Assembly (NCBI RefSeq): GCF_003853705.1 | Contig: NZ_QTQI01000003.1 | Coordinates: 124,001 to 188,000, forward strand | DNA from: Burkholderia sp. Bp8992 | GTDB lineage: Bacteria > Pseudomonadota > Gammaproteobacteria > Burkholderiales > Burkholderiaceae | Length of the DNA stretch: 64,000 bases | Direction: 5' to 3' | Shown: piece by piece, positions 3,302-64,000 of the stretch | How positions within the stretch are numbered: position 1 is the stretch's first letter | How the letters are laid out: every line of letters starts with the position of its first letter | The notes under the pieces: model-generated | Told to the model about the DNA's origin: nothing | The model's database searches: none | The model's input: the letters and a program-made list of their open reading frames with translations, nothing else | Program-made: the position numbers and the translations under genes

Positions 3302-3364
3302 CGTTGTCTCCTGGTATTGGTGTGTTGAATGCCGCGTCGCACGCGGCGGGTCGGCATGGCGCCG

Positions 3365-36374: not shown

Positions 36375-36410
36375 GACAACCTCGCAACGGTTCGTTATTC
36401 GGCACTCACG

Positions 36411-37388: not shown

Positions 37389-37420
37389 GAAGCCTCCCCG
37401 GCAGCGAACGGTGCCTGTCG

Positions 37421-38788: not shown

Positions 38789-38806
38789 GATGGTTCCCCA
38801 AAAGAG

Positions 38807-40015: not shown

Positions 40016-40037
40016 GTCGTGTGCCTCGTCTGTTCGA

Positions 40038-40481
40038 TTAGTTGCAGGCGGTGCCGCCCGTCGCGGAAGTCAGGCTTTCGCGCGGCAGTGTCGTCGTGAA
40101 CGGCGGCATCGTCACCGTGACGTTCACGAAAGGGATCATCGTCTTGACGGTGACGTTCGTGACGCTGACGGTCACGAACGCGCAAGAATTCACGTCACAG
40201 CTTGAGGGCGAGTAGTTCACCGACACGTTCGCGTTCGACAGCAGCGGCAGCAGCGATCTCACGCGCTTCACGACGCCGGCCGCGTTCACGTCGCAGACCA
40301 CCGCCGTGCGCGCGCCCAGGCGCACGGCCTCGCTCGCGGTGCTCCAGTAGAACAGCACGCGGCCGAACTCGAAGATGCCGATCAGCAGCATGATCAGCAC
40401 CGACGCGATCAACGCGAACTCGACGATTGCCGCACCGCGCTGGGTGCGCCGGCGTGACGGGAGGGCATGGCGCGCGCTCAT
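40038..40481 (-). CDS. TadE-like pseudopilin
   Basis: The protein has 147 residues. A short basic leader RRRTQRG and the cleavage-type motif GAAIVEFALIASVLIMLLIG, then FEFGRVLFYWSTASEAVRLG, are the TadE signature. The prepilin peptidase should cut after the glycine and methylate the next residue. The rest is a small periplasmic domain with a few Cys. The ATG at 40481 overlaps the stop of the other TadE-like gene by 4 bases. Minor pilins of this type help initiate or cap Flp fibres. Confidence 0.88.
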   Translation of the reverse strand: MSARHALPSRRRTQRGAAIVEFALIASVLIMLLIGIFEFGRVLFYWSTASEAVRLGARTAVVCDVNAAGVVKRVRSLLPLLSNANVSVNYSPSSCDVNSCAFVTVSVTNVTVKTMIPFVNVTVTMPPFTTTLPRESLTSATGGTACN

Positions 40482-41011
40482 GACACTTGCCTCATCACGG
40501 TGACGATGTTGTTGAAGGTGATCGACGGCAGCCCCGGGAACGCGGGGATCGGCTGGTACTTGTAGCCCGTGATCTTCACTTCGACGACGTTGATCGCGCC
40601 CATCGCCGTGCCGCCCGCCGCGTTGTTGTTCGAGTCGTAGGTCGGCAGGTTCGCGAACTGCGACGGATCGGACGCGTCGCTGCAGCCGGTCGTGTGCTGC
40701 GCGTCGCAGATCGTCACCATCGACGTCGTGAGCCCCGGCACCAGCTCGGTGCCGGAAGCACCGCACGTCGTGCTGCCGTAGACGACGAGACACTGCGCCT
40801 GCGACACCGGATATGCGCTGTCGGTCGGCAGCCAGATCGACAGGTAGCGCGCCGCGTCGCGGGTCGCCTTGGTCAGCGTCTCGAACTGGTAGATCGCACG
40901 GCCGAACTCCGCCACGCCGGTCGCGAGCATGATCATCGGCATCAGCACGAGTGCGAACTCGACGGCAACGGCGCCACGGGTGCGCGAACGACGAATCGGG
41001 GGCATTTTCAT
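40478..41011 (-). CDS. TadE/TadF-like pseudopilin
   Basis: The protein has 177 residues. After MKMPPIRRSRTRG comes GAVAVEFALVLMPMIMLATG and VAEFGRAIYQFETLTKATRD, a TadE-type N-terminus with Glu at +5. The periplasmic part contains four to five Cys (CLVVYGSTTC, TICDAQHTTGC), probably disulphide-linked. I placed the start at ATG 41011, eight bases after AGGGAG; a GTG at 41020 is also in frame. It is translationally coupled to the following tadE-like gene. Confidence 0.87.
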   Translation of the reverse strand: MKMPPIRRSRTRGAVAVEFALVLMPMIMLATGVAEFGRAIYQFETLTKATRDAARYLSIWLPTDSAYPVSQAQCLVVYGSTTCGASGTELVPGLTTSMVTICDAQHTTGCSDASDPSQFANLPTYDSNNNAAGGTAMGAINVVEVKITGYKYQPIPAFPGLPSITFNNIVTVMRQVS

Positions 41012-41023
41012 GATCGTCACTCC

Positions 41024-42289
41024 CTATTGGACCAGCATCGGCACCTGGACCCCGGACGCGCTGCCGTCACCAGGCAATCCGTGCGTCGCGCACGGATTGT
41101 TGCCGGAGACGGACGACCCGAGGTATTCGAGGTGGGCGATGACGTTGCCGCTGCCGGCGCTGAAGGGCAACGGATCGAGCATCAGCACGCAGTCCCATTG
41201 CGTGACGTGCACCTTGCCGCTGCTGCCGTTCAGTGTCGAGCAGTCGCCTTCCGGCGCGAGCGCGACCCGGCGGTCGCCGCCGTAACTCTGGTAGTTGCTC
41301 GCGGTCGCGGTGCCGTTGGTGGCGATCCCGCTGCCCGTCGGCGGCGCGCCATCGCCCTGGTAGGACTTGAAAGCAGCGCGGTCGGCTACGAACTGCGTGT
41401 AGGCGTCGCCCTTGATGCCCGCCGTTCCGGGCGGCCCGTAGTTCGGGCCGACATACGCGTAGCCGGTGAAGTCGGGCTGGCCGCTCGAGCCGTTCGCGCC
41501 GTTCGTATAGATGCCGAAGCGCGTATTCCAGGCGCGCAGCGACGCCGACTTCAAGCCGGTGGTGCCGAGGTCGGGCGGGCTCTTGATATTGCAGCTATTG
41601 CCCGACAGCTCGCCCGCGAGCGTCGGCTCGTTCGTCGTGCCGTCGAGCGCCGCCCAGCCGAAATTGCCGGGTCCGTAGGATGAACCGGACGGCGACGTGA
41701 GCCAGTCGCCGACCTTGTAGGCCGGATCGGACGGGCCGCGGCACACGAACACGGGAATCGCGCAGGCCGTCTGCCCGCCGCCGACGGTCGCGATCGCGCT
41801 CGCCGACACTTCCGCGGCGCTCGCGAGCTTCGTGCCCGGCAGCACGTTCAGCACCTCGATGAACCAGTGCGCGATGTTGCTCAGCTTCGTCGCGCACTGC
41901 ACGTACTTGATGTTCGCCGGTGTCGTGACCGAGTTCTTGGTCAGGAACGGGTTGGTCAGCGAATCGCTGAACGTGACGTTCGAATTCGTCGACAACTGCA
42001 CCGACTTGTTCTGGAAAAACACGAAGTTCAGATGGCCGGCGGCGATGCCGTCGGCCTCGGCCACCGACAGGCTGATGGCCGAGGTCAGGTCGCGCGCAGC
42101 CGACAGCGCGCACGCATCGGCGCTGTTCTGCAGTTCGCTGCGCGTGACGTACAGCTTGCCGAGATCCAGCGCGAGCCCGACGAACCCGATCATCACCGCC
42201 AGTGCGAGACCAACGATGATCGCGACGGCACCGCGCTGGCGATGCAGGTTGCGACGCGTGACTTTCGGATAGCGGGCTGCGCTGTTCAT
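41024..42289 (-). CDS. TadG-like pilus assembly protein
   Basis: The protein has 421 residues. The N-terminus RQRGAVAIIVGLALAVMIG with FVGLALDLGKLYVTRSELQN and ADACALSAARDL is the TadG N-terminal domain, which anchors the protein in the inner membrane with a large periplasmic part. No von Willebrand A domain with an intact MIDAS is evident in the remaining 350 residues, which are rich in Gly, Ser, Thr and Asn. The last residues PMLVQ sit next to the following TadE-like gene (12-base gap). Confidence 0.85.
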   Translation of the reverse strand: MNSAARYPKVTRRNLHRQRGAVAIIVGLALAVMIGFVGLALDLGKLYVTRSELQNSADACALSAARDLTSAISLSVAEADGIAAGHLNFVFFQNKSVQLSTNSNVTFSDSLTNPFLTKNSVTTPANIKYVQCATKLSNIAHWFIEVLNVLPGTKLASAAEVSASAIATVGGGQTACAIPVFVCRGPSDPAYKVGDWLTSPSGSSYGPGNFGWAALDGTTNEPTLAGELSGNSCNIKSPPDLGTTGLKSASLRAWNTRFGIYTNGANGSSGQPDFTGYAYVGPNYGPPGTAGIKGDAYTQFVADRAAFKSYQGDGAPPTGSGIATNGTATASNYQSYGGDRRVALAPEGDCSTLNGSSGKVHVTQWDCVLMLDPLPFSAGSGNVIAHLEYLGSSVSGNNPCATHGLPGDGSASGVQVPMLVQ

Positions 42290-42314
42290 GGCGTTCTCCC
42301 TGAGCGTCCTGTCG

Positions 42315-42611
42315 TTACTGGGTGGACTTGCCGATGCCGATCACGAAGGCATTGGCAGGCGGCACGGCTTGCTTGAACGACTTGTCGTAGTTGTCGAGCG
42401 CGGCCGCGGCGGCGGCGCCGTCGACCCCCGATGCCGATGCCGGGTGTTCGCCGGCATGCGGATCGATGATCTGGGCCTGCATCACGGTGCGGACCGAATC
42501 GCCGAAGCGGCTGTCCCACACCGGGGTCGACGACATGCAGCCGGCAAGCGCGAACGCGAGCGGGACGGCGAGCGCCGCGCGGCGCACGAATACGAGGTAG
42601 GCGGATTTCAT
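42315..42611 (-). CDS. Small Tad-locus lipoprotein
   Basis: The protein has 98 residues. The leader MKSAYLVFVRRAALAVPLAF ends in the lipobox LAGC, so Cys near residue 25 should be lipidated. The mature part is short and has QAQIIDPHAGEHPA and FVIGIGKSTQ at the end. The ATG at 42611 follows AAGGGGA. It sits just after the secretin gene; a small lipoprotein at this place could be a pilotin or a CpaD-type partner of the secretin, although it is much shorter than CpaD. Tad loci of Burkholderia often carry such a gene. Confidence 0.82.
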   Translation of the reverse strand: MKSAYLVFVRRAALAVPLAFALAGCMSSTPVWDSRFGDSVRTVMQAQIIDPHAGEHPASASGVDGAAAAAALDNYDKSFKQAVPPANAFVIGIGKSTQ

Positions 42612-42631
42612 GAGTGTCCCCTTGACTGGTT

Positions 42632-44560
42632 TCAACGATCGGTGGACTCGGGGGCCGCGCTCACGTGCGCAACCTGCGCCCGCGCGGCTGCCGGGATCCG
42701 GTGCTTGAGCCGCGCCGCCGGCTGGGCCGGCGTGTCGGGGCCGGCCGCCGCGAGGCGTGCGGCGGTGGCTTCGATGCGCGCGATGCGGGCCGCGTTCGAC
42801 GTGTCGGACAGCGGTGCGGCGGCGACCACCGGCGCGGGCACCTTCTGCGGCTCGGCCAGCACCGGCGACTGCGCATCGGCGCCTTGCGGTGCGCGCGGCG
42901 CGGGCAGCGCGGCGGTCGGACCGGTGGGCACTTCCGATTGCGGAGCCGGTGCCGGAGCCGGCGCCTGGGCCGGTGCCTGCGGTGCCGCGGCTGCGCCGTT
43001 CGCGGGTTGCGCGCCTGCCTTGCGAACCCCGCCACGGCCTTCCATGTTGCCGGTCGCGTACACGTCGGCTTCGTTCGGCTTGGAGAAGCTGTCGGTCGGC
43101 AGCGGCACGTCCGCGGTCTGCAGCGGTTTCACCAGGTGCGGCGTGATCAGGAAGATCAGCTCGGTGCGGTCCTGCTGAAACGATGTGCTGCGGAACAGCG
43201 CGCCGAGCACGGGCACTTCGCCGACGCCGGGGATCGCCTTCAGCGCACCGCTCGCGTTGTCCTTGATCAGCCCGCCGATCGCGAACGATTCGCCGTCACC
43301 CATCTGCACCGTCGTCGACGCGCGCCGCGTCGTGATCAGCGGCAGGATCGACGTGCCGCCGATGTTGGACGCGCTCAGCGTGACGCCCGTCTGCGACAGC
43401 TCCGACACTTCCGGCGCGACCTTCAGGCTGATCCGGCCGTTGGCCAGCACCGTCGGCGTGAACTTCAGCGCGACGCCGAATTCCTCTTCCTGCAGCGTGA
43501 TCGACGAGACGCCGTTGCTGCCGCTCTGCGGGATCGGGATGAAGATCTTGCCGCCGGCGAGGAACGTCGCTTCCTGGCCGCTGATCGTCACGAGATTCGG
43601 CTCCGCGAGGATCTTGACGAGGTTGTCGGTGTTCTGCGCGTCGGCCGCGATGCTGAACGGCTTGTTGTTCGCCTTGTTGAAGACGGCGCCGCTCGCCACG
43701 CCCGCCAGCAGGTTGCTGACCAGCGCGCCGCTCCACGAACCGAACCCGCCCTGGATGTTGAACGCGCTGCCCATCTGGTTGATCAGCGTCTTCGACACCT
43801 CGGCCACCTTCACCTCGAGCATCACCTGCTGCGGCGACGTGACGTTCAGCATGTTCAACACACCGCCGCCGCCCTTGCCGCCCGCGGCCGGGTCGCCGGC
43901 GCTGTCGCCGTACGCATGGGCGATCTGCACGGCCTGCTGCGCGGCCTGCGAGCTCGACACGGTGCCCGCCAGCACGATCGTGCCGGCCGCGGTCGATACG
44001 TGGATGTCGCGCTCGGTCGGCATCAGCTGCAGCAGCGACGCCTGCAAACCGCCGGCGTCCGCGCCGACCGCGACGTCGATCACGCGACAGGCACCGCTCT
44101 TGCCCTGCACGATCATGTTGGTCGTGCCGACGGCAAGCCCGAGGATGTACAGCGTCTGCGGCGACACCATCGTGGCCTGGGCGACGGCCGGGTTGCCGAT
44201 CGTCCGATTGCGGACCGGCTCCGGCATCGGCACCAGCAGCGACTTGCCGAGCGGCACGCTGACGCTGGTCGACTCGCGCACGGCGCCGACGCAGTTCGGC
44301 CCGCGCAACGGCCCCGCCGAGGCGGCGGGCGCGGCGGCCGGCACCGGCGCCATGCTGATCGTCATCTGCATCGGCCCCTTGCCGACCGCGGCCGGCGCGC
44401 TGGCGCCGCCCTTCGTCAGCACGGCCGACTCGACGCCTTCCTGCGCGAGTGCGCCATAAACGGTCAGCCATCCCGTACAGAGGATCGCGGCCATCATCGT
44501 GCCCCGTGCGACGCGCGTCCGCAGCGGGCCGGTACCTGTGCATTGCGGTTTGATCTTCAT
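42632..44560 (-). CDS. cpaC: Tad outer-membrane secretin CpaC/RcpA
   Basis: The protein has 642 residues. A signal peptide (GTMMAAILCTGWLTVYGALA) precedes the N-terminal pilus domain (VPLGKSLLVPMPEPVRNRTI) and a BON-like region (MPTERDIHVSTAAGTIVLAG). The secretin core follows, with VMLEVKVAEVSKTLINQMG, GQEATFLAGGKIFIPIPQ and DRTELIFLITPHLVKPL. It forms the channel through which the pilus leaves. The C-terminal 130 residues are a long Ala/Pro-rich tail (APAQAPAPAPAPQSE) that ordinary RcpA proteins lack or have shorter. It is preceded by cpaB at 104 bases. Confidence 0.94.
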   Translation of the reverse strand: MKIKPQCTGTGPLRTRVARGTMMAAILCTGWLTVYGALAQEGVESAVLTKGGASAPAAVGKGPMQMTISMAPVPAAAPAASAGPLRGPNCVGAVRESTSVSVPLGKSLLVPMPEPVRNRTIGNPAVAQATMVSPQTLYILGLAVGTTNMIVQGKSGACRVIDVAVGADAGGLQASLLQLMPTERDIHVSTAAGTIVLAGTVSSSQAAQQAVQIAHAYGDSAGDPAAGGKGGGGVLNMLNVTSPQQVMLEVKVAEVSKTLINQMGSAFNIQGGFGSWSGALVSNLLAGVASGAVFNKANNKPFSIAADAQNTDNLVKILAEPNLVTISGQEATFLAGGKIFIPIPQSGSNGVSSITLQEEEFGVALKFTPTVLANGRISLKVAPEVSELSQTGVTLSASNIGGTSILPLITTRRASTTVQMGDGESFAIGGLIKDNASGALKAIPGVGEVPVLGALFRSTSFQQDRTELIFLITPHLVKPLQTADVPLPTDSFSKPNEADVYATGNMEGRGGVRKAGAQPANGAAAAPQAPAQAPAPAPAPQSEVPTGPTAALPAPRAPQGADAQSPVLAEPQKVPAPVVAAAPLSDTSNAARIARIEATAARLAAAGPDTPAQPAARLKHRIPAAARAQVAHVSAAPESTDR

Positions 44561-53787: not shown

Positions 53788-54291
53788 ATGTCACGCGTTA
53801 CCGATGTGCTCGTTTCGTTCGATACCGAAACCATTCTCAAAAAATATCCGAATCCCAGCAGGAACCCGGCCGCACCGACGCTGATCGACTGGCATTACGT
53901 CTATATGGTGACCAACCAGGACAACGTGATCTCCGGGCAGGCGGGCGGCGAGCTCGATCTGAAAGCGCAGGTCGGCGACCTGATCCGCTGGCGCGAAACG
54001 AGCCTGTCGCTGGGCTTCGAGAACCAGGTGGTGTTCTACAAGTTCATCGGCAACGTCGGCAACGACCTGATCTCGACGCCGACGCCGCGCGTCGCGGAAG
54101 CGTCGATCCCGGTGCCGAACACCAGCAAGCCGGAAGTGCCGACGTGCCAGAAAGTCGCGAACTACTACTGGTCGTCGGAATGCCTGAAGGTCGGCCGCGT
54201 GACCTACCACTTCCAGTTCCAGATCATCGATCGCAACTGTCAGAGCCAGGGCTGCTTCTCGTGGGATCCGTTCATCTCGATCCATAACTGA
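53788..54291 (+). CDS. aidA: AidA/PixA-family inclusion-body protein
   Basis: The protein has 167 residues. The N-terminal VTDVLVSFDTETILKKYPNP, YVYMVTNQDNVISGQAGGEL and the late RVTYHFQFQIIDRNCQSQGC with FSWDPFISI match the PixA/AidA family. No signal peptide is evident. In the cepacia complex AidA is quorum-sensing dependent and linked with slow killing of nematodes; the biochemical action is not known. The lux box upstream supports such control here. The gene is followed after 65 bases by a protein with the same domain plus a lectin. Confidence 0.9.
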   Translation: MSRVTDVLVSFDTETILKKYPNPSRNPAAPTLIDWHYVYMVTNQDNVISGQAGGELDLKAQVGDLIRWRETSLSLGFENQVVFYKFIGNVGNDLISTPTPRVAEASIPVPNTSKPEVPTCQKVANYYWSSECLKVGRVTYHFQFQIIDRNCQSQGCFSWDPFISIHN

Positions 54292-54356
54292 TCGCGGCAG
54301 GCGGGCGGCCGCGCGACGGCCGTCCGCGCCGCCCCCTTGTTGCGGAGGAGGTGCCC

Positions 54357-55247
54357 ATGTCTGGTCTTCGTTGCGATGTGCTCGCAGTCATCGACGCCGT
54401 CACGCTGCTGTCGACCTACCCCGATGCAAGCCGGGACGCCGATGCGCCGACCGTGATCGACGGCCGGCACATCTACGTGCTGAGCCCCGGCGACGCCGGG
54501 CAGGTCGGCCACAACGACAACCGGTTGTTTGCCGGCTTGTCGCCGGGCGACCAGCTTCACCTGCGCGAGACCGCACTGGCGCTGCGCGCCGAGGTGAGCG
54601 TGCTGTTCGTCCGGTTCGTCTTGAAGGACGCCGGCATCGTCGCGCCGATCGAAGCGGAAGTCCGCGATGCCGCCACGCCGGTGCCGGACGGCGACGACCT
54701 GCTTCAGCCGTCGTGCCGGCCGATGAAAGACCATTTCTGGCGCAGCGAGGTGCTCGCTGCCGGCACCACCGCCTGCACGGCCGATTTCGCGGTGCTCGAC
54801 CGCGACGGCGCCGTGTCGGGCTACTTCCGCTGGGAAACGACCATCGAGATCGCCGGCAGCCATCCGGACACGAAGCAGCCCGGTTTCAAGCCGTCGTCCG
54901 ACCGCAACGGCCACTTCACGCTGCCGCCGAATACCGATTTCAAAGCGACCTTCTACGCGAATGCCGCCGACCGGCAGGACCTGAAGCTGTTCATCGACGA
55001 CGCGACGGAACCGGCCGCGTCGTTCGCCGGCAACGGCGACGACGGCGTCAGGCAGTTCACGCTGAACTCGCGGGGCGGCAGGATCCGGATCGACGCGTCG
55101 GCCAATGGCAAACCATCCGCGACCGATGCGCGGCTCGCGCCGCTGTCCGCCGGCGATACGGTCTGGCTCGGCTGGCTCGGCGCCGAAGACGGCGCCGACC
55201 GCGACTACAACGACGGGATCGTGATCCTGCAGTGGCCGATCACGTGA
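54357..55247 (+). CDS. AidA-like domain fused to a LecB/BC2L-type mannose-fucose lectin (BC2L-D-like)
   Basis: The protein has 296 residues. Residues about 1-170 are an AidA-like domain (VIDAVTLLSTYPDASRDADA, RWETTIEIAG). Residues about 185-296 are a LecB-type lectin: FTLPPNTDFKATFYANAAD, VNGK-like ANGKPSATDARLAP, and the calcium loop EDGADRDYNDGIVILQWP. The Glu, Asp and Asn ligands of both calcium ions are kept. The C-terminus is Thr (QWPIT) where LecB and BC2L-A end in Gly, whose carboxylate helps bind calcium in the partner subunit. The start at 54357 has GGAGGAGG upstream. Cepacia-complex BC2L-D is my best match from memory. It is probably co-transcribed with aidA. Confidence 0.88.
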   Translation: MSGLRCDVLAVIDAVTLLSTYPDASRDADAPTVIDGRHIYVLSPGDAGQVGHNDNRLFAGLSPGDQLHLRETALALRAEVSVLFVRFVLKDAGIVAPIEAEVRDAATPVPDGDDLLQPSCRPMKDHFWRSEVLAAGTTACTADFAVLDRDGAVSGYFRWETTIEIAGSHPDTKQPGFKPSSDRNGHFTLPPNTDFKATFYANAADRQDLKLFIDDATEPAASFAGNGDDGVRQFTLNSRGGRIRIDASANGKPSATDARLAPLSAGDTVWLGWLGAEDGADRDYNDGIVILQWPIT

Positions 55248-55266: not shown

Positions 55267-56205
55267 TCAGGTGCGCGGCAATCCCGGTGGATTGGTCTGC
55301 GACTGGTCGATCGCTTCGGCATCGAGGCTCCAGCGTCCAAGCACCTTCCGGTAGCTGCCGTTCGCGATCAGCGCATTGATCGCGAGCGTCAGCGGATCGG
55401 CGAGCCCGCTGCCCTTGCGCGTCGTGATCGCGATGTCCGCGGTACGCGGCCAGCCTCCGCTCACGGTGCCGATCAGCTTCGCGTCGCCGCGCAGCGACGC
55501 CTGGTACGCGAGCATCGAGTTCACGCTGAAGATCGTGTCGACGCGGCCCGACTGCAGCGCGACCCAGCGCTCCGCCGCGTCGGGGTAGTACTGGATCTCG
55601 ACCGGCGCGAGGCCGCGTGCGACATTCTGGCGATTCCATTCGAGCAGGATCTTTTCCTGGTTCGTGCCCGAATCGGTCACGACGCGCAGCCCGGCGACAT
55701 CCTTCGGTTCGCGGATCGCGGCAAGCTTGCTGCCGTTCTTCACGTAGAAGCCGACCTGATCCTTCCGGTAGGTCGAGAAGTCGAACTTCTCCTTGCGCTG
55801 CTCGGTGACCGTCACGTTCGAGATCACCGCGTCGACCTTGCCGGACTGCAGCGCGAGCGGCCAGTCGGCCCACGCGAGCGCCACGATCTTCAACTTGCGG
55901 CCGATACTGTCCGCGATCAGTTGCGCGAGATCGGGATCGAAGCCGACCACCGTCCGCGCATCCGTCGCATACGTGCTGAGCGGCGGCAGGTTCGGCGCGA
56001 TGCCGATCGTCAGCGTGTCCGCTTCGGCAAACTTGAAGCCGCCCGGCACCGCCCGCTCGACCGCCGGGTTCACGGTGCCGCGCTGCCGGCCCGGCTGCTC
56101 GGGGCTCAGGTCGAACGTCGCGGCCTGCGCGGCGACACTGCCGCCGATCGCGATCGCGGCCAGCATGCGAGCGATGCGCGCAACGGGGAAAGTCGTTCTT
56201 CTCAT
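55267..56205 (-). CDS. Amino-acid ABC transporter binding protein
   Basis: The protein has 312 residues. A signal peptide (VARIARMLAAIAIGGSVAAQ, cleavage near AQAA) is followed by the family-3 solute-binding fold: LTIGIAPNLPPLSTYA, VVGFDPDLAQLIADSIGRKL, VDAVISNVTVTEQRKEKFDF and VAGLRVVTDSGTNQEKILLE. Polar amino acids are the usual ligands. No permease or ATPase genes are near, so it must use another transporter or act as a sensor. It lies 93 bases after the 2OG-oxygenase gene on the same strand, and probably belongs to that cluster. Confidence 0.88.
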   Translation of the reverse strand: MRRTTFPVARIARMLAAIAIGGSVAAQAATFDLSPEQPGRQRGTVNPAVERAVPGGFKFAEADTLTIGIAPNLPPLSTYATDARTVVGFDPDLAQLIADSIGRKLKIVALAWADWPLALQSGKVDAVISNVTVTEQRKEKFDFSTYRKDQVGFYVKNGSKLAAIREPKDVAGLRVVTDSGTNQEKILLEWNRQNVARGLAPVEIQYYPDAAERWVALQSGRVDTIFSVNSMLAYQASLRGDAKLIGTVSGGWPRTADIAITTRKGSGLADPLTLAINALIANGSYRKVLGRWSLDAEAIDQSQTNPPGLPRT

Positions 56206-56298
56206 GTCTTTTGCAATCCTTTGTAATTCGACGATGTGTCGGGCATTCTCGAGTGGGGCAGGCGACGTGTCGCGCGTGTCGCCGCCTCGTCCGGTCTT

Positions 56299-57420
56299 TC
56301 ACGCGGGCGTCGCCTCGAGTTCGGCCGCGGCCGCGCGCTGCGGCGCCGGCTGCACGACGCGCGACGGCTGCCTCGCTTGCGCCGGGTCACCCGCGTACAG
56401 CGCTTTCGGATCGAACACGCGCGCCTGCAGCGGCGTGAACGAGCGGAAATTCCACAGGCTGCGCGCGACGAACACGCGCTGCACCCAGCGGTATGCACGA
56501 TCGTTCTCGTCGTACTGCGGATCGAAACGGTCGCGCGAATGCAGCGTGAAATGGTTGTTGATCAGCACCAGCTTGCCCGGCGACACCTGGACGCCGAACG
56601 ACACCTCGCGCACCGCGCGGTACAGGTTCGCCAGCGCCTCCTGCGCGCGCGTGTTGACGGCCAGCACCATGTCCGGATAGAACGCGACCGTCACGCGCGG
56701 CGCGTCGAGCGGCCCCGACAGCACGGCGCTCAGGTCGGTGTTGTCGCGCGGCGTCGGCGCGGCCCCGCGCCACCGGTACGGCACACGGATGATGTAGTGC
56801 TCGCCGTACAGTTGCGCGATGTCGTCCGGCGACAGCCGTTCCAGCGCGCGGCGCGCATCGGCGAGCCGCGTGTACGGGCCGCCGCCGGCTTCGCTGCGTA
56901 CGCCGAGCAGCAGCAGCGCGAACGGTGACGTATCGCCTTCCGGCATGTGCGCCTGCGCGGCGTTCTCGATATGGAAATCCAGCTCGACCTCGGAGCCGAG
57001 GCCCGTGTACTCGCGTGCGGTTGCCTTGTGCGGCGTCAGGTTGTTCACGAGCTCGCGGCCTTCGTGCGCGATCGAATACGGCTCGCCGGCCAGCGTGCTC
57101 AGCGCGACCAGCACGTTCTCGCTCAGCACGCCGGCCTTGAACGAGCGGCCGGTTTCCTCGAACCGTGGGCTGCCCTTCACGTCGTCGTCGATCGGCAGGT
57201 TGTCGATCTCGATCGAACCGTGCGCGTCCGCGGTCGGCGCCTTCGCGCGGTCGAACGCGTCGACGATGCGGTCGGGAAACGCGTTGTACGCGAGCTTGCG
57301 CACCGCACTGATATAGCCGGCGCCGCCGGCCGGATCGTAGGCCAGCGCGCCGAGTGTCCTGCGGATGTGAGCGGATTCCACTGCCGTCAAGGCGACGCGT
57401 TCATCTGCGAGATAGGTCAT
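56299..57420 (-). CDS. Clavaminate-synthase-like Fe(II)/2-oxoglutarate oxygenase, probable amino-acid hydroxylase
   Basis: The protein has 373 residues. The iron-binding His-x-Glu is visible in GLGSEVELDFHIENAA (about residue 155), and the distal His and the 2-oxoglutarate Arg are in NNHFTLHSRDRF (about 310). Overall it resembles the VioC/AsnO/lysine-hydroxylase group of the clavaminate synthase family, which hydroxylate free amino acids such as Arg, Asn and Lys. The length fits. It is divergent from the MFS exporter and shares the AT-rich promoter region. Which amino acid it uses cannot be read off the sequence. Confidence 0.85.
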   Translation of the reverse strand: MTYLADERVALTAVESAHIRRTLGALAYDPAGGAGYISAVRKLAYNAFPDRIVDAFDRAKAPTADAHGSIEIDNLPIDDDVKGSPRFEETGRSFKAGVLSENVLVALSTLAGEPYSIAHEGRELVNNLTPHKATAREYTGLGSEVELDFHIENAAQAHMPEGDTSPFALLLLGVRSEAGGGPYTRLADARRALERLSPDDIAQLYGEHYIIRVPYRWRGAAPTPRDNTDLSAVLSGPLDAPRVTVAFYPDMVLAVNTRAQEALANLYRAVREVSFGVQVSPGKLVLINNHFTLHSRDRFDPQYDENDRAYRWVQRVFVARSLWNFRSFTPLQARVFDPKALYAGDPAQARQPSRVVQPAPQRAAAAELEATPA

Positions 57421-57867
57421 AGGTCTCTCGTATAAAGATTCTGGGTCGAAGAGCGGTAGCGCACCACCGCCGCGCTCGGCCGTCCTCGGTGCGAAGCGCT
57501 CGACAAGACTAGGAGACCGTCATTGCATTGCGAAATGATATTAATTCGATTGCAAACAAAAATTATCGATATAAGTTCAGCAACGCAGCCGCGCTCGGCC
57601 GCACCGATCGAGCCGGCCTTTAACACGAATACTTGTTAAAAAATCGCTGGTTATTATTTGTATTCGCTAGCGGGTCGATGCTAGTTTTCTGTCGGATTCG
57701 ACGACGCGGCCGGCGCCCGACGCGCAGCCGCCTCCCCTCATCCGCCCTACGGGAACCCGCCAGATGAATCGATGCCGCCTGCCGCGCTGCTGCTTCTTCG
57801 AGGACGCCGGATACGACGTGACGTTGCCGGTGTACCGCCGCCCCGACCATCCGGCCAGGGAGCCGCA
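57421..57867. other. Divergent AT-rich control region of the ATP-grasp/oxygenase cluster
   Basis: These 447 bases separate the oxygenase (minus) and MFS (plus) genes. The part 57510-57670 is AT-rich and holds AAATGATAT at 57533-57541, the reverse of the ATATCATTT found twice in the promoter of the LysR gene. Also seen is the inverted pair CGAATAC (57626-57632) / GTATTCG (57660-57666). No gene is supported in the interval. Confidence 0.65.
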
Positions 57868-59301
57868 ATGAGCGACCGTGCCGCGGCGCTCGACAGCGCA
57901 CCGGCCGCCGCCGCGCCGGCATCGCGCACGTCGCTGCGTGCGATCCTCCCGACCGTCGCGGCCGCGAGCCTCGGCTTCGCGATCGTCCAGCTCGACGTGA
58001 CCGTCGTCAACGTCGCCATTCCGAGCCTCGGCCACTCCTTCGGCTCGCGCGTTCACGGGCTGCAGTGGATCGTCGATGCGTACACACTGTCGTTCGCCGC
58101 GTTGCTGCTGACGTCCGGCACGCTGGCCGACCGCTTCGGCAGCCGCCGGCTGTTCGCATACGGCCTCGCGCTGTTCCTGCTCGCGTCGCTCGGCTGCGCG
58201 CTCGCGCCGTCGCTCGTCGCGCTGATCGCCGCGCGGGTCGCACAAGGCGTCGGCGCCGCGATGATCCTGCCCACGTCGCTCGCGCTCATCACGCATGCGT
58301 GCGCGAACGACACTGCCGCGCGCGTGAAAGCCGTCGCGTGGTGGAGCGCGACCGGCGGTGCGATCAGCGCGGCCGGGCCGACGCTCGGCGGCCTGCTGAT
58401 CGATTCGCTCGGCTGGCGCGCGATCTTCTTCATCAACCTGCCGATCTGCGCGATCGGGCTGTGGCTCACGCTGCGCCACGTGCAGGATTCGGCTGCCGCG
58501 CGCACGCGGCTGTTCGATCCGGCCGGCCAGATCGTCGCGGTGCTGGTACTCGGTCTGCTGACGGGCGGGATCATCCGGGCGGGCGCGCAAGGTGTCGGCG
58601 ATCCGTATGCGGCCGGCGCGCTGATCGCGTCGGCCGTGCTCGGCACGCTGTTCGTCGCGATCGAACGGCGCGTGGCCGCGCCGATGCTGCAGCTTGCGTT
58701 CTTCCGGATCGCGCGCGTGCCGGGCGTGCTGGCGATCGGCGCGGTCACGAACGCCGCGTTCTACGGGCTGATCTTCTCGCTCAGCCTCTATTTCCAGAAC
58801 GCGCGCGGCTTCACGGCGACCGAATCGGGGCTCGCGCTCGCGCCGCTCACGATCATCATGCTCGCCAACATCGCGAGCGCGCGGCTCGCGGTACGGTACG
58901 GATTCCGCGCGACCGTCGTCATCGGCCTCGCCGTGACGCTCGCGGGCTACCTGTGGCTGTGGCGCACGCTCGCCGCGCATACGCCGTACGTCCTGCTGGC
59001 GCCGGGGCTCGCGGCGATGGCGATCGGCGGCGGCATCGCGATTCCCGCGCTGACGTCGACGATGCTCGGCAGCGTCGAGGCCGGCCGCTCGGCAACAGCT
59101 TCCGCGATCCTCAATACCGCGCGCCAGGTGGGCGCCGCGATCGGCGTCGCGGCACTCGGCGCGCTGGTCGCGGGCCAGGGCGCGGCGATCGTGGCCGGCG
59201 CGGCGCACGCGTTCGCCGTCGCGGCCGTGCTCGTCGCGGTCTGCATCGTGGTGGCCTTGCGCTGGCCCGGCGACGCACCCGATACCGGCGCGCGGGCCTG
59301 A
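57868..59301 (+). CDS. MFS drug/metabolite exporter, DHA2 type (14 helices)
   Basis: The protein has 477 residues. Residue-1 side signatures ILPTVAAASLGFAIVQLDVT and TVVNVAIPSLGHSFG, then LLLTSGTLADRFGSRRLFAY (motif A) and LPTSLALITHACANDTAAR, define DHA2 antiporters. It probably exports the product of the neighbouring biosynthetic genes and gives self-protection. The start at 57868 follows GGGAG; an in-frame ATG 32 codons earlier has no site. It is followed after 52 bases by an ATP-grasp gene. Confidence 0.9.
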   Translation: MSDRAAALDSAPAAAAPASRTSLRAILPTVAAASLGFAIVQLDVTVVNVAIPSLGHSFGSRVHGLQWIVDAYTLSFAALLLTSGTLADRFGSRRLFAYGLALFLLASLGCALAPSLVALIAARVAQGVGAAMILPTSLALITHACANDTAARVKAVAWWSATGGAISAAGPTLGGLLIDSLGWRAIFFINLPICAIGLWLTLRHVQDSAAARTRLFDPAGQIVAVLVLGLLTGGIIRAGAQGVGDPYAAGALIASAVLGTLFVAIERRVAAPMLQLAFFRIARVPGVLAIGAVTNAAFYGLIFSLSLYFQNARGFTATESGLALAPLTIIMLANIASARLAVRYGFRATVVIGLAVTLAGYLWLWRTLAAHTPYVLLAPGLAAMAIGGGIAIPALTSTMLGSVEAGRSATASAILNTARQVGAAIGVAALGALVAGQGAAIVAGAAHAFAVAAVLVAVCIVVALRWPGDAPDTGARA

Positions 59302-59353
59302 GCCGTCGCCGACCGACACCCTTCAACCGATCCCACAGCCGAGCGAGGAACCC

Positions 59354-60622
59354 ATGCAGCATCGCTTCATCGATACCGTCCTGATCGTCGACGGCGCGTC
59401 GACCGCCGCCTACCTGGCGCCCGCGTTTCGTGCGTACGGCATCCGTTGCGCGCACGTGATCAGCGATCCCGACCTGCCGGAAATCTACCGGAACCAGTTC
59501 GTGGCGTCCGACTACATCCGCCAGGTCCAGCACCGCGGCGACATCGACGCGACGCTCGCGCAGCTGGGCGACCTGCGGATCGGCGCGGTGCTGCACGGCC
59601 TCGATGCGGCGCTGGAGCTGGCCGACACGCTGGCCGAGCGGCTCGACGTGCCTTACCGCAACCCGCTCGCGACGTCGGCCGCGCGGCGCGACAAGTTCGC
59701 GATGAACGAACGCATCCGCCAGGCCGGCCTGCGCGCACCGGCACACTTTCACAGCACGTCGGTCGATGAAGCGCTCGAATGGGCGCGCGCGCAGCGCACG
59801 CTGCCGCTCGTCGTGAAGCCGGCGCGCAGCGCGGGCGTCACCGGCGTGAAGATCTGCCGGACGCTCGCGCAGGTCGAGGCTGCCGCGCGCGACGTGCTGG
59901 CCACCCGTTCGCTGTACAACCAGCCGAACGACGACATCGTGATCCAGAGCTATTCCGAGGGGCAGGAATACATCGTCGATTCGGTGTCGTTCGAGGGCCG
60001 TCATCGCGTGGTCAGCCTGTGGGAAGTGCATCGCGACCGTACGCACGCGCCGCGGCTCGACAAGATGCTGGTGCTGAATCACGCGGACCCGCGCTACGCG
60101 CCGCTGCTCGACTACGCGGCCGACGTACTCGACGCGCTCGACGTGCGCTTCGGGCCGACCCACCTCGAGCTGTTCGATACGGCTGACGGCCCGACGATCG
60201 TCGAGCTGAACGCGCGACTGCACGGTAGCCTGGACCCGCGCCTGACGAGTGCGGTCAGCGGCGAGAATCACGTATCGGCCGCCGTCGAAGCCGTGCTGCA
60301 TCCGGAGCGGCTGTTCGGCGAAGCGGCCGCGCCGACGGATTTCCGCGGCTATTGCGGGCACGTGCTGCTGCTGTCGTCACGTAACGGCGTGCTGCGGCAG
60401 GACTTCACGTGGCAGGCGATCCAGGCGCTGCCGTCGTTCGTCGGGCTCAAGCAGTGGATCAAGGTAGGCGATACGCTGCGCGTGACCACCGACCTGCAGA
60501 CGGCGCTCGGCACCGTCGGCCTCTACAGTCCGACGTTCGAGCGGCTGCTCGAGGATTGCCGGCGCATCCGCGAGATCGAAGCCGATTTCTTCGCGGACGA
60601 ACGCGCGGTTGTGCCGGCCTAG
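59354..60622 (+). CDS. ATP-grasp ligase (first)
   Basis: The protein has 422 residues. ATP-grasp fold with LPLVVKPARSAGVTGVKICR (ATP-binding lysine, near residue 155), EGQEYIVDSVSFEGRH and GPTHLELFDTADGPTIVELN with ARLHGSLDP, the metal-binding end. The type is the L-amino-acid ligase/carboxylate-amine ligase group used in dipeptide and natural-product pathways. It lies in an operon with the MFS gene. It ends in TAG that shares the CTAG with the stop of the convergent LysR gene, so the two overlap by 4 bases. Confidence 0.87.
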   Translation: MQHRFIDTVLIVDGASTAAYLAPAFRAYGIRCAHVISDPDLPEIYRNQFVASDYIRQVQHRGDIDATLAQLGDLRIGAVLHGLDAALELADTLAERLDVPYRNPLATSAARRDKFAMNERIRQAGLRAPAHFHSTSVDEALEWARAQRTLPLVVKPARSAGVTGVKICRTLAQVEAAARDVLATRSLYNQPNDDIVIQSYSEGQEYIVDSVSFEGRHRVVSLWEVHRDRTHAPRLDKMLVLNHADPRYAPLLDYAADVLDALDVRFGPTHLELFDTADGPTIVELNARLHGSLDPRLTSAVSGENHVSAAVEAVLHPERLFGEAAAPTDFRGYCGHVLLLSSRNGVLRQDFTWQAIQALPSFVGLKQWIKVGDTLRVTTDLQTALGTVGLYSPTFERLLEDCRRIREIEADFFADERAVVPA

Positions 60623-61494
60623 CGCGCGAGCAGCGCACCCGCCTGCCGGCCGAGCACCGCGCGCAGCGCATCGAGTTCGGGCAGCGCGGGCGCTTCGTCG
60701 GGCGTGACGAGGTAGGTCGTCACGCTGTCGAGGTCGTCGAATGCATGCGCGCGCAATTCCTTGCGCGCGACGTACTCGGTCGTGATCCGCTTCGGCAGGA
60801 TCGCGACGCCCATCCCGGCCGCCACGCAGCCGAGGATCGCGCCGAACGTGCCGAACGACGACACCGATTCGATCGCGACGCCGCGCGCCTTCAGCCAGTG
60901 CTCCGCGACCGCGCGGTACGGGCAGCCGTCGTGAAACGCGAGCAGCCGCACCGAGTTGTCGGCCAGCAGTTGCCGGCGCGTGACCGTGGCCGCGCCGACC
61001 AGCACCATCTCTTCGGCAAACGCGGGCTCGTAACGCAACCCTGGCCGGACGACCGCGCGCGCGGTGAGCGCGGTATCGATCCGGCCGCGCAGCAGTGCGT
61101 CGGCCAGCTCCGGCTCGCTGCCGATCTGGACCGCGAGACCGAGCGCCGGCTCGCGCTCCTTCAACGCGGCGGCCAGCGCCGGCAGCCGCGTGGCCGCCGT
61201 GCTTTCCATCGAACCGAGCCGGAAGCTGCGTGCGACCGGCGTATCGCGCACCACCTGCGTCGCTTCGTCGACAAGGCGCAGGATGCGGTCGCAATACGGC
61301 ATCAGCCGGCGTCCCGCATCGTTCAGCACCAGCCGCTTGCCGTGCCGGTCGAACAGCGGCGCGTCGAGCGACTCTTCGAGCTGGCGCAGCCTCGCGGTGA
61401 CGTTCGATTGCGTGCAGCCGAGCCGCTCGGCCGCGCGCAACGCGCTGCCTTCCTGAACAACGGCACGAAAGGTTTCGAGCAGAGGGATGTTCAT
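60619..61494 (-). CDS. LysR-family transcriptional regulator
   Basis: The protein has 291 residues. N-terminal winged helix (MNIPLLETFRAVVQEGSALR, RLGCTQSNVTARLRQLEESL) and a C-terminal effector domain of normal length. The gene is divergent from the BASS-type transporter and convergent with the first ATP-grasp gene. Its own promoter region carries two copies of ATATCATTT, the first overlapping the start codon, consistent with self-regulation. The same 9-mer in the other promoter region of the cluster suggests that it controls the whole set. Confidence 0.93.
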   Translation of the reverse strand: MNIPLLETFRAVVQEGSALRAAERLGCTQSNVTARLRQLEESLDAPLFDRHGKRLVLNDAGRRLMPYCDRILRLVDEATQVVRDTPVARSFRLGSMESTAATRLPALAAALKEREPALGLAVQIGSEPELADALLRGRIDTALTARAVVRPGLRYEPAFAEEMVLVGAATVTRRQLLADNSVRLLAFHDGCPYRAVAEHWLKARGVAIESVSSFGTFGAILGCVAAGMGVAILPKRITTEYVARKELRAHAFDDLDSVTTYLVTPDEAPALPELDALRAVLGRQAGALLAR

Positions 61495-61533
61495 ATCATT
61501 TTCTCTTGTTACCGATTCAGTTTATATCATTTT
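61493..61533. promoter_or_regulatory. Direct repeat ATATCATTTT in the lysR promoter
   Basis: ATATCATTTT occurs at 61493-61502 and at 61524-61533, a 31-base period (three helical turns). The AT-rich interval between the LysR gene and the BASS gene is only 165 bases. The 9-mer recurs as AAATGATAT at 57533-57541. A binding site of the LysR protein is the likely meaning. Confidence 0.5.
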
Positions 61534-61659
61534 ACTTCGCCAATCATCCGGATTAGCCTAGCGGATATTCGGTGCCGGCCGCTCTTTCCGAGGAATCCGC
61601 ATGCCATCCGCTGTCTGCTCCGGCTTCACCAACGTTCGCCGCCGGCCCGAGGTTCGCCC

Positions 61660-62604
61660 GTGCGCGCACTGATCGCCGCGACGGTGCGGCGCGGGCCTAC
61701 CGTGCTCGCGTGCGGCGTCGTCCTCGGGCTGCTGGTGCCGCCGCTCGCGGGTCTCGCGCGGCCGTTGATGCCTGTCACCGTGTTCCTGTTCGTGCTCGGC
61801 ACGCTGCTGCGCGTCGAGCCCAGCGCCGTGCGCGCGGTTGCGCGCCGGCCGGCCGTGTCGCTGCTGCTGCCGGCCGCGACGATGATCGTGTGCCCGGTCG
61901 CGCTCGGTATCGCCGCGCGGCTCGCCGGCATGCCGTACGACTGGGTCGTCGCGCTGGTGATCGCGTACTGCGCGCCGCCGTCGAGCGGCACGTCGACGAT
62001 CGCGCGGATGTTGTCGCTCGACGCGAGCGTCGCCCTCGTCGCGACCCTCGCGTCGATGGTGTTCGTGCCGCTCACCGCGCCGCTGCTGACGGCCTGGTTC
62101 AGCCACGATGCCGCGGTGTCGATCTCGCCATTGAGTCTCGCGTTGCGGCTCGCGCTGCTGATCGGCAGTGCCGAGGGTGTCGCGCTGCTCGTGCGACGCT
62201 TTGCCGGTTCGCGACTCGACCGCCATGCGACGCCGATCGACGCGACCGTCGTGGTCGCGCTGCTGGTGTTCGCGCTCGGCACGATGGCCGGCATGCAGCA
62301 ATCGATCATCGATGCGCCGCACCGCGCGCTGAGCGCGATCGTGCTCGCGTTCGCGGTCAATGCCGGCTTCCAGGTCCTCGCGTACGGGCTCACGCCCGGC
62401 GACGTCCGCACGCGGCTCAACGTCGCGCTGATCGTCGCCAATCGCAACGTCGGCCTGATGTGGGCCGCGCTCGGGCTGGCCGCGACGCCGACCATGGCAC
62501 TCGTGTTCACGTGCGCGCAGTTGCCGATCTATACGCTGCCGCGCGTCGTCCAGCACCTGCTGCCGCGCCTCGAAGCGCAGCGCCTGCGCCGGCGCGCGCG
62601 CTGA
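61660..62604 (+). CDS. BASS/bile-acid-sodium-symporter-like transporter
   Basis: The protein has 314 residues from a GTG at 61660 (GAGG about 6 bases upstream); no in-frame ATG is near. About nine or ten helices; PVTVFLFVLGTLLRVEPSAV near the N-terminus and VIAYCAPPSSGTSTIARMLS, then VALIVANRNVGLMWAALGLA, fit the BASS/Acr3-like fold. The conserved Glu/Gln sodium-site residues could not be assigned. It may import a precursor or export a product. It lies between the LysR gene and the second ATP-grasp gene. Confidence 0.75.
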   Translation: MRALIAATVRRGPTVLACGVVLGLLVPPLAGLARPLMPVTVFLFVLGTLLRVEPSAVRAVARRPAVSLLLPAATMIVCPVALGIAARLAGMPYDWVVALVIAYCAPPSSGTSTIARMLSLDASVALVATLASMVFVPLTAPLLTAWFSHDAAVSISPLSLALRLALLIGSAEGVALLVRRFAGSRLDRHATPIDATVVVALLVFALGTMAGMQQSIIDAPHRALSAIVLAFAVNAGFQVLAYGLTPGDVRTRLNVALIVANRNVGLMWAALGLAATPTMALVFTCAQLPIYTLPRVVQHLLPRLEAQRLRRRAR

Positions 62605-62641
62605 CCGGCCCTACTCCTCCGTTCCCGATCAAGGACCCGAC

Positions 62642-63895
62642 ATGAAGCGACTCATCGTGATCGGCGCGCGCGCCACCGGCAGCAGCGTTGCGCTGGTCCG
62701 CGCCGCGCTGGCACGCCAGCTGGCCGTCACCGTCATCACCGCGCCCGGCCATCGTCTCGACGGCGTGTTTCCCGACGCCGTCGAGACCGTCAACCTCGAG
62801 CCCGATGCCGGCCGGCTCGCCGGCTGGCTGCGCACGCGCTTTCCCGGCGAACTCGATACGCTGCGCGTGACGACCGCCCACGACACCTATGCGCGCACCG
62901 CCGCGTGGGTTGCCGACGCGCTCGGCCTGCCCGGCCCCGACGCGCGGCACGTCGCGCACGCGGTATCGAAATCGAACCAGAAGGCGCTGCTCGCCGCGCA
63001 CGGCATCCCGGCCGCCCGGTTCGTCACGGGCACGCTGGCCGCGCCGGCAGCGCTTGCGGCCGCGGCCGATCCGCTGCGCCTTCCGGTCGTCGTCAAGCCG
63101 TCGGAAGGCTCGGCGAGCGATGGTGTGCGGCGCTGCGAGGACATCGCCGACGTACGAGCGCAGCTCGACGCGCTCGCGGTCGCGGCCGCGCAAGCCGACG
63201 CGCAGTCGCTCGCAAACGAACGCGTCGTGATCGAGGAATTCCTGAGCGGCAGCGAATACTGCGTCGAGTATTTCGACGGCCGCTATGTCGGCGCGCTGCG
63301 CAAGCTGAAGCGGCATGGCGCCGGTTTTCTCGAACGCGGCTATACGTCCGAACTCGATCTCGATGGCGACACGCTGCGCGCGCTGATCGACGTCGGCACG
63401 CGCGCGACCGCGGCGGCCGGGCTCACGTGGGGGCCCGTGCACCTCGACTGCATCGTGCACGACGGCGTGCCGCACGTGATCGAGCTGAATCCGCGCATCG
63501 CGGGCAGCTTCATCTGCGACATCGTGCGCGACGGGTACGGCTTCAACGTCGTCGAAGCACTGCTCGACAAGCTCGACGGGCGTGCGGTGACGATCCCCGA
63601 GCTGTTCGAGCCGCACGCGTATGCACGCGCCGAATTCCTGCTCGACAGCGATCCGAGCGCGTGGCGCTTCGCGCAGGCCGGCGAACTGAACGACGGCGCG
63701 GTCACGCTCAGTTACGGGCCTCAAGTGCTGCCCGATCGCGAACGGCGCGCGTTTCTTTATGTACGGGTTGCGTTGCCGGCTGCGCACGGTTCGGCGGAAC
63801 ACGCGGAATCGTCGGCCGAGCGCGGTGAGGTCGTACAGCCGACGCAGGCTGCGGCATCTTCTGATCTGGAGCCTTCAACCGGAAAGGTTGGCTGA
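62642..63895 (+). CDS. ATP-grasp ligase (second)
   Basis: The protein has 417 residues. LPVVVKPSEGSASDGVRRCE near residue 150 and SGSEYCVEYFDGRYVGALRK, then GPVHLDCIVHDGVPHVIELN with PRIAGSFICDIV, show an intact ATP-grasp fold of the carboxylate-amine ligase group. It is only distantly similar to the first ATP-grasp protein, so the two probably join different partners. The gene is 37 bases after the transporter gene. A Ser/Glu-rich tail (HGSAEHAESSAERGEVVQ) lies beyond the domain. Confidence 0.87.
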   Translation: MKRLIVIGARATGSSVALVRAALARQLAVTVITAPGHRLDGVFPDAVETVNLEPDAGRLAGWLRTRFPGELDTLRVTTAHDTYARTAAWVADALGLPGPDARHVAHAVSKSNQKALLAAHGIPAARFVTGTLAAPAALAAAADPLRLPVVVKPSEGSASDGVRRCEDIADVRAQLDALAVAAAQADAQSLANERVVIEEFLSGSEYCVEYFDGRYVGALRKLKRHGAGFLERGYTSELDLDGDTLRALIDVGTRATAAAGLTWGPVHLDCIVHDGVPHVIELNPRIAGSFICDIVRDGYGFNVVEALLDKLDGRAVTIPELFEPHAYARAEFLLDSDPSAWRFAQAGELNDGAVTLSYGPQVLPDRERRAFLYVRVALPAAHGSAEHAESSAERGEVVQPTQAAASSDLEPSTGKVG

Positions 63896-63916
63896 TACGT
63901 CATAGGGTGTTCCGGA

Positions 63917-64000
63917 ATGGCTGCGACGGTGCTTGAGCGCATCCGCGTCGCACTTCACGCGCAGTCACGCGCGCTGTTCGTCGATGTGCGCACGGATACG
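63917..64000 (+). CDS. Start of an unidentified gene (cut by window edge)
   Basis: An ATG at 63917 opens MAATVLERIRVALHAQSRAL and remains open for 28 codons to the window end. It is 21 bases after the second ATP-grasp stop and on the same strand, so it would be the next gene of the operon. The piece is too short to name a family. The upstream GGGTG is a weak ribosome site. Confidence 0.5.
   Translation, partial: MAATVLERIRVALHAQSRALFVDVRTDT

Follow-up and report, generated by a model that had tools for sequence, protein, structure and literature searches.

Stand-alone ATP-grasp ligases have precedents in small-peptide biosynthesis, namely DdaF of the dapdiamide pathway and TabS, the dipeptide ligase of tabtoxin biosynthesis in Pseudomonas syringae, as given in the text of PMC12568646 and PMC13338154. 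In the dapdiamide (dda) system of Pantoea, stand-alone amide ligases are accompanied by the Fe(II)/2-oxoglutarate oxygenase DdaC, which is named in the reference list of PMC12568646. Additionally, according to the text of the same paper, the E-64 pathway (cp1/cp2) combines a 2-oxoglutarate oxygenase with an ATP-grasp enzyme and a second amide-forming enzyme; this pathway differs in being fungal and in using a fumarate epoxidase and an ANL-family ligase, and it is likened here by kinds of enzyme, not by orthology. Here we analyze a seven-gene locus in a stretch of 64,000 nucleotides from Burkholderia sp. Bp8992 (contig NZ_QTQI01000003.1; hereafter the window), which probably represents a conserved cluster, independent of nonribosomal peptide synthetases (NRPS), for the biosynthesis and export of a small peptide with an oxidized amino acid.

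The seven genes occupy 55.3–63.9 kb of the window and encode, in this order, a solute-binding protein, an oxygenase, an exporter of the major facilitator superfamily (MFS), ATP-grasp ligase 1, a LysR-type regulator, a BASS-like membrane transporter and ATP-grasp ligase 2. Ligase 1 is related to the dapdiamide ATP-grasp enzyme, with 211 bits against the DdaF model NF041595 (dapdiamide A synthase), and ligase 2 scores 32.2 bits, both below the cut-off of 840. Unlike the dapdiamide system, the seven genes include no DdaG-type adenylating ligase, carrier protein or diaminopropionate enzyme, and their oxygenase is of the clavaminate synthase group. Unlike the tabtoxin cluster, which was compared by description only, they include no beta-lactam synthetase. 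Further parts are presumably shared, as we take the dapdiamide cluster to have an MFS exporter and the tabtoxin cluster to have both an exporter and a clavaminate-synthase-like enzyme. The locus is best read as a cluster that appears to follow the dapdiamide/tabtoxin logic but belongs to neither family. A search of the open-access literature returned no description of it, most subscription journals lying outside the scope of that search.

Co-inheritance and selection in Burkholderia

The window is from the Burkholderia cepacia complex (Bcc), and many bacteria of this complex have the gene set. Among 65 Burkholderia genomes, the oxygenase is matched in 25, at 92–98% identity in 24 of them and at 71% in G022. 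Ligase 1 and ligase 2 are each present in 24 genomes, which are the same 24 that carry the oxygenase at 92% or above, and at the thresholds used all three are missing from the remaining 40 genomes, G022 apart. A contig scan with ligase 2 gives 14 loci, all from Burkholderia and 85–91% identical, two of which lie on chromosome 3. The stretches fetched for 13 of these hold all seven genes, in unchanged order; the stretch from B. lata (L010), which holds an insertion, shows the LysR gene, the BASS-like gene and ligase 2 alone. Additionally, at least 80% of the locus is covered in each of three plasmid-collection records from Burkholderia (L015, L016 and L022); L016 has all seven genes, and L015 (B. 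pyrrocinia) has the cluster devoid of the binding protein.

The ratio of non-synonymous to synonymous substitution rates (dN/dS) relative to the window ranges from 0.05 to 0.24 for the binding protein, oxygenase, ligase 1, LysR, BASS-like gene and ligase 2. These values, which cover six of the seven genes, come from 5 or 6 comparisons per gene after three were omitted (L009 for ligase 2, L002 and L006 for the exporter); the six genes are under purifying selection. Because the three enzymes co-occur identically in 24 of 65 genomes and dN/dS is this low, the gene set goes beyond a chance arrangement.

In G019, which is probably B. lata and the same genome as L010, ligase 1 and the exporter lie approximately 14 kb from the LysR half, behind an insertion. 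From this insertion, at 3.1–17.3 kb of locus L043 between ligase 1 and LysR, eight open reading frames (ORFs) were compared with Pfam; they are an alcohol dehydrogenase, a response regulator, two DUF2827 proteins, an OmpA protein, a sub-threshold fimbrial match and two without any match. In G050, what remains of the cluster is the BASS-like gene and the LysR gene, the latter matched up to residue 284 of 291; both are 94–95% identical and adjoin PixA genes. No binding protein, oxygenase, exporter or ligase is matched in the 14 kb fetched there, and none of the three enzymes is found in the whole G050 genome at the thresholds used.

On the downstream side, the sequence-only reading had placed the start of one more gene past position 63895. 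This does not hold for the family, as downstream gene families are common to at most 8 of 17 loci, the last 105 bp of the window are matched in 4 of 42 loci (L001, L002, L016 and L026), and the genes past 64000, as read in relatives, include none common to all. Because the downstream genes differ among relatives, the cluster is taken to end with ligase 2.

Recurrence of the core outside Burkholderia

In wider samples, 30 of 398 family genomes and 2 of 398 phylum genomes match the oxygenase, G001 being one of the two, and 4 of 369 class genomes match the ligase 1 profile, G001 among them. Six oxygenase loci that are divergent or partial, together with those of G022 and G415, were retrieved for comparison. 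Two further genomes of the family, as well as plasmids of Pantoea and Rahnella, also have the core of oxygenase, exporter and two ligases. In G600 (L037), the oxygenase (79%), exporter (68%), ligase 2 (47%) and ligase 1 (72%) stand side by side, with a BASS-like gene (64%) approximately 2.7 kb beyond the core. In G502 (L038), the oxygenase (71%), exporter (53%), ligase 1 (52%) and ligase 2 (51%) are likewise adjacent. The plasmids of Pantoea alfalfae CQ10 (L017) and Rahnella sikkimica (L018) carry adjacent genes for the oxygenase (65%), exporter (49–50%), ligase 2 (53–54%) and ligase 1 (52%), and the plasmid cluster of P. agglomerans FL1 (L021) is alike by annotation. Distinct from the Burkholderia cluster, the Pantoea/Rahnella clusters add a third ATP-grasp protein (about 44% like ligase 2), a pyridoxal-phosphate enzyme of the AOS family (PRK07505; the annotated “aminotransferase” of L017) and a flavin mononucleotide-dependent monooxygenase (TIGR03860), have a TetR regulator in place of LysR and show no match to the BASS-like gene. 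These Enterobacterales relatives come from plant, flour and soil samples, and no description of their clusters was present in the literature examined.

The Pantoea relative might have been one of the known Pantoea antibiotics, PNP-1 to PNP-5 or the pantocins; these were set apart on the texts of the papers alone and not by sequence. ATP-grasp, TauD and dioxygenase are terms that the main texts of PMC11350110 and PMC7744662 do not use. PNP-2 has a ferredoxin reductase in the text of PMC11350110, and PNP-1 has, in that of PMC4010436, an MFS protein and a formyltransferase, while the ATP-grasp gene in the table of the latter paper is carB. The seven-gene cluster of P. agglomerans Eh318, also compared by text only, opens with pnp1B–D homologs and includes an MFS protein, one ATP-grasp protein, a sulfotransferase and an aminotransferase, and the main text of PMC4010436 is free of the words oxygenase and dioxygenase.

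The oxygenase and the two ATP-grasp ligases

Profile searches confirm the oxygenase, the two ATP-grasp ligases, the LysR regulator and the amino-acid-type binding protein that the sequence-only reading had named. The oxygenase scores 41.9 bits against Pfam TauD (cut-off 27) and, by this score together with an HxE...H facial triad, is assigned to the TauD/clavaminate-synthase-like superfamily. Its putative iron ligands, H150, E152 and H294, align with the AsnO motifs and show no variation among 9 aligned sequences, and its reading frame is open over 371–374 codons in 16 of 16 relatives. It falls far below the named NCBIfam equivalogs, with 82.8 bits for GntD (cut-off 345), 78.4 for the clavaminate synthase CS1 (450) and 59.2 for VioC (418.6). 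Relatives of solved structure include AsnO, an L-lysine 3-hydroxylase, L-arginine hydroxylases and clavaminate synthase. AsnO (E 1.6e-24), OrfP (1.1e-15) and KDO1 (7.3e-18) are related by sequence and have the HxE...H triad in common with it, and these amino-acid hydroxylases, like VioC, are remote relatives. Specifically, the Asp on the RVD, RLD or VFD strand of AsnO, OrfP and KDO1, which we take to contact the substrate, falls at or beside an invariant FYP stretch of the window oxygenase family. Because Phe-Tyr-Pro stands where those enzymes have Asp, the substrate is likely to differ from theirs. The reaction is predicted to be a hydroxylation, although the enzyme could also desaturate or epoxidize.

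A plasmid of Vibrio mediterranei (L019, 10001–10549) carries a fragment 38% identical to the C-terminal half of the oxygenase, with no ligase genes nearby in the annotation, which is itself incomplete.

Both ligases exceed the Pfam ATP-grasp_4 cut-off of 27 bits, with 40.3 for ligase 1 and 65.6 for ligase 2. Ligase 1 also passes the PRK07206 subfamily model NF005543 (310.1 bits, cut-off 302), to which ligase 2 gives 66.8 bits, below the cut-off. The solved chain nearest to ligase 2 is 3vot, the L-amino acid ligase BL00235 (E 2.4e-15). In the ATP-grasp fold, a Lys, a Glu or Asp, a Glu and an Asn serve as ATP/Mg residues. These positions are intact in both enzymes: K155, E272, E284 and N286 of ligase 1 are invariant in an alignment of 6 sequences, and K152, D269, E281 and N283 of ligase 2 in an alignment of 8. 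Of 16 relatives, 15 have a ligase 1 of 422 codons. For ligase 2, 7 of the 24 cluster genomes showed stops inside the match; these 7 were read together with 17 other loci, and in all 24 of these sequences, a set that differs from the 24 cluster genomes, the first stop falls at codon 402–419. This is the normal end of a variable tail, and the idea of a pseudogene was rejected. Distant ligase 1 relatives (33–34%) on Rhizobium rhizogenes and Streptomyces plasmids have gene contexts that revealed no described pathway.

A 15-bp element shared by two divergent promoters

The divergent intergenic regions of 16 aligned loci contain strongly conserved AT-rich blocks. The same 15-mer, TTWATATCATTTYRC, is present in both divergent promoters of the window, 4 kb apart, with no further window site at up to one mismatch and none in 100 shuffles. 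Exact matches across the 65 Burkholderia genomes number 38, all at the cluster locus, against approximately 0.1 expected from base composition. At least one match is found in each of the 24 cluster genomes and one in the LysR–BASS remnant of G050; the other 40 genomes, including G022 with its distant LysR–oxygenase pair, have none, and the reversed control gives 0. Because the pattern was picked after seeing both sites, its conservation within each promoter is not independent evidence, and the informative observation is that two promoters 4 kb apart have the same element while the other genomes of the genus are without a match. We infer that the LysR regulator binds this element. In L044 (G059; 2356–3923), the intergenic region between oxygenase and exporter exceeds that of the window by approximately 1.2 kb and lacks an exact copy of the oxygenase-side 15-mer.

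Accessory genes and neighbourhood

Table 1. Coordinates of the locus features in the window.
Feature	Position	Strand	Remarks
Family-3 solute-binding protein	55267..56205	-	Accessory, outside the core; Pfam SBP_bac_3, 95.6 bits
Putative Fe(II)/2-oxoglutarate oxygenase, clavaminate synthase / AsnO / VioC group	56299..57420	-	Triad H150, E152, H294 by alignment
15-bp element TTAATATCATTTCGC	57530..57544	-	Oxygenase/exporter intergenic region
Palindrome TTAACA-N8-TGTTAA	57620..57639	.	Oxygenase/exporter intergenic region; perfect arms, kept in 16 of 16 aligned loci
MFS exporter, DHA2-like	57868..59301	+	Conserved start ATG 57868, set by comparison with relatives
ATP-grasp ligase 1, PRK07206 / DdaF-like	59354..60622	+	Nearest solved chain 30vh, “L-amino acid ligase”, E 1.7e-50
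LysR-type regulator	60619..61494	-	Nearest NCBIfam model PtrR, 201 bits (cut-off 400)
15-bp element TTTATATCATTTTAC	61521..61535	+	LysR/BASS divergent promoter
Upstream ORF, 23 codons	61601..61672	+	Stop overlaps the BASS-like start; same length in 16 of 16 loci
BASS/SBF-like membrane transporter	61660..62604	+	Weak family match; start by comparison with relatives
ATP-grasp ligase 2	62642..63895	+	Like the N-terminal part of PRK02186, 146 of 625 bits; last conserved gene

Two of the transport assignments of the sequence-only reading stand in part. The “DHA2 exporter” belongs to the MFS by its score against Pfam MFS_1 (178.2 bits, cut-off 33.4) but stays below the DHA2 model TIGR00711 (201.2 bits, cut-off 230.2). 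The “BASS transporter” is a weak match, with 20.2 bits against a Pfam SBF cut-off of 24.3; its gene starts at GTG 61660 in the window and with ATG in L006, L008 and L013. In the 23-codon ORF upstream of it, 25 synonymous and 40 non-synonymous distinct changes are found, the neutral synonymous fraction being 0.27, and its coding status is uncertain and weakly supported.

The binding protein is matched in 13 of the 14 loci of the ligase 2 scan, the L010 stretch ending short of the position, and has no match beside the cluster in L015, L017, L018, L037 and L038. An Rfam search of 56200–64000 gave no matches, and PADLOC, which detects anti-phage defence, gave 0 matches for the five proteins submitted, namely the binding protein, the oxygenase, the BASS-like protein and the two ligases.

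Immediately beside the locus, at 53788–55247, lies an AidA/PixA-type gene pair, whose second protein carries a PA-IIL lectin domain as a fusion. Matches to this second protein stop near residue 192–199, short of the lectin part, in L003, L004 (B. cenocepacia) and L012. Elsewhere in the window are a 4384-aa open frame on the minus strand (5943–19097) for an autotransporter-like giant protein with 19 passenger-associated transport repeats, and, also on the minus strand (35394–44560), a Tad/Flp pilus cluster with two T2SSF, T2SSE, AAA, Tad and secretin proteins.

Discussion

All-or-none inheritance of the enzymes, purifying selection, the promoter element in common and the recurrence of the core in other genera together support a biosynthetic locus, as the sequence-only reading had supposed, and one for which no description was found. 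In the scheme that we propose, the 2-oxoglutarate oxygenase would oxidize a free amino acid, by hydroxylation or possibly desaturation, and the two ATP-grasp ligases would activate carboxylates as acyl phosphates and make two amide bonds; the result would be a di- or tripeptide or a peptide-like antimetabolite. The MFS pump would export this product, the BASS-like protein would probably carry a precursor or confer self-protection, and LysR would co-ordinate both halves of the locus via the 15-bp element at the two divergent promoters. Substrates, reaction order, product, export and the role of the BASS-like protein are predicted here from protein families. A di- or tripeptide carrying a hydroxylated amino acid, as suggested earlier, is what these enzyme families would most simply make, its chemistry being a prediction.

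Several observations weigh against this scheme. Neither ligase reaches the cut-off of a function-named family, ligase 1 passing only a subfamily labelled “hypothetical protein”, and, for the oxygenase as for ligase 2, every function-named NCBIfam model is matched at a score far below its cut-off. The AlphaFold model of the oxygenase has a mean confidence (pLDDT) of 53, too low to use. Oxygenase relatives occur with no ligases in the stretch fetched in G022 (71%), G480 (69–71%), G496 (48%) and G415 (38–39%), and in G022 the oxygenase is accompanied by a LysR protein (54%) and a different MFS protein alone; because of these relatives, the oxygenase may serve another pathway. G583 and G710 hold fragments. 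The binding protein and the BASS-like gene are outside the core. Some copies appear damaged, as ligase 1 of L001 runs to 445 codons with an altered C-terminal end and Rahnella ligase 1 matches in two pieces. The 15-mer was spotted by eye in two promoters of the window, its conservation within each promoter partly reflects common descent, and 13 of the 24 cluster genomes alone hold it exactly at both sites.

Gamma-glutamylation serves putrescine breakdown and offers a model for a different role, an uptake and catabolic locus in which the binding protein and the BASS-like protein import an amino acid or polyamine, the oxygenase and ligases modify it for breakdown and LysR acts as the sensor. The nearest models point this way for LysR (the putrescine-utilization regulator PtrR) and for the binding protein (TIGR01096, Lys/Arg/Orn, 105 bits against a cut-off of 256), as does the LysR–oxygenase–MFS set of G022, whose MFS protein has models of phosphoglycerate and galactonate transporters as its nearest matches, at scores far below the cut-offs. 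We nevertheless regard such a role as unlikely, since the seven genes include no aminotransferase, dehydrogenase or hydrolase, an exporter-related MFS protein is present in every ligase-bearing cluster compared, and the distant clusters are without the binding protein. A small metal chelator or signal, exported by the MFS protein and re-imported by the BASS-like carrier, is less probable still. No TonB receptor or ABC importer is among the seven genes, and the AidA/PixA genes are unmatched in 6 of the 14 loci (L005, L006, L008, L010, L011 and L013; the L010 stretch holds an insertion), against which stand the presence of an exporter and a possible importer that have the same element in common and the neighbouring AidA/PixA pair, whose B. 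cenocepacia counterparts BCAS0293 and BCAS0292 are strongly CepR-dependent according to the text of PMC2753556.

The presence of two divergent promoters, the separation of the halves by approximately 14 kb in G019 and the retention of LysR and the BASS-like gene alone in G050 would also suit two independent neighbouring loci, one of oxygenase, exporter and ligase 1 and the other of LysR, transporter and ligase 2. This is the least probable of the alternatives and in our judgment very hard to sustain, because both ligases are found in the identical 24 genomes, the 15-mer is in both promoters, and the ligases are adjacent in Pantoea, Rahnella, G600 and G502.

An NRPS-independent peptide cluster is the preferred reading. 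The Bcc and Pantoea/Rahnella clusters may, as we tentatively suggest, form one undescribed oxygenase–exporter–multi-ATP-grasp family. It is conceivable, with somewhat less than even confidence, that this family makes new oligopeptide antimetabolites without ribosome or NRPS, with product length determined by whether two or three ligases are present. Clusters devoid of NRPS and polyketide synthase genes are easily missed, as in the text of PMC7744662, where antiSMASH missed the PNP-1, PNP-2 and pantocin A clusters, and PNP-3 in one of two strains. The compact gene set described here, present in 24 of 65 Burkholderia genomes and with relatives on plasmids, is a tractable route to a secreted metabolite. 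It offers two uncharacterized ligases and one oxygenase for biocatalysis, and the 15-mer in both promoters makes its regulon directly testable.

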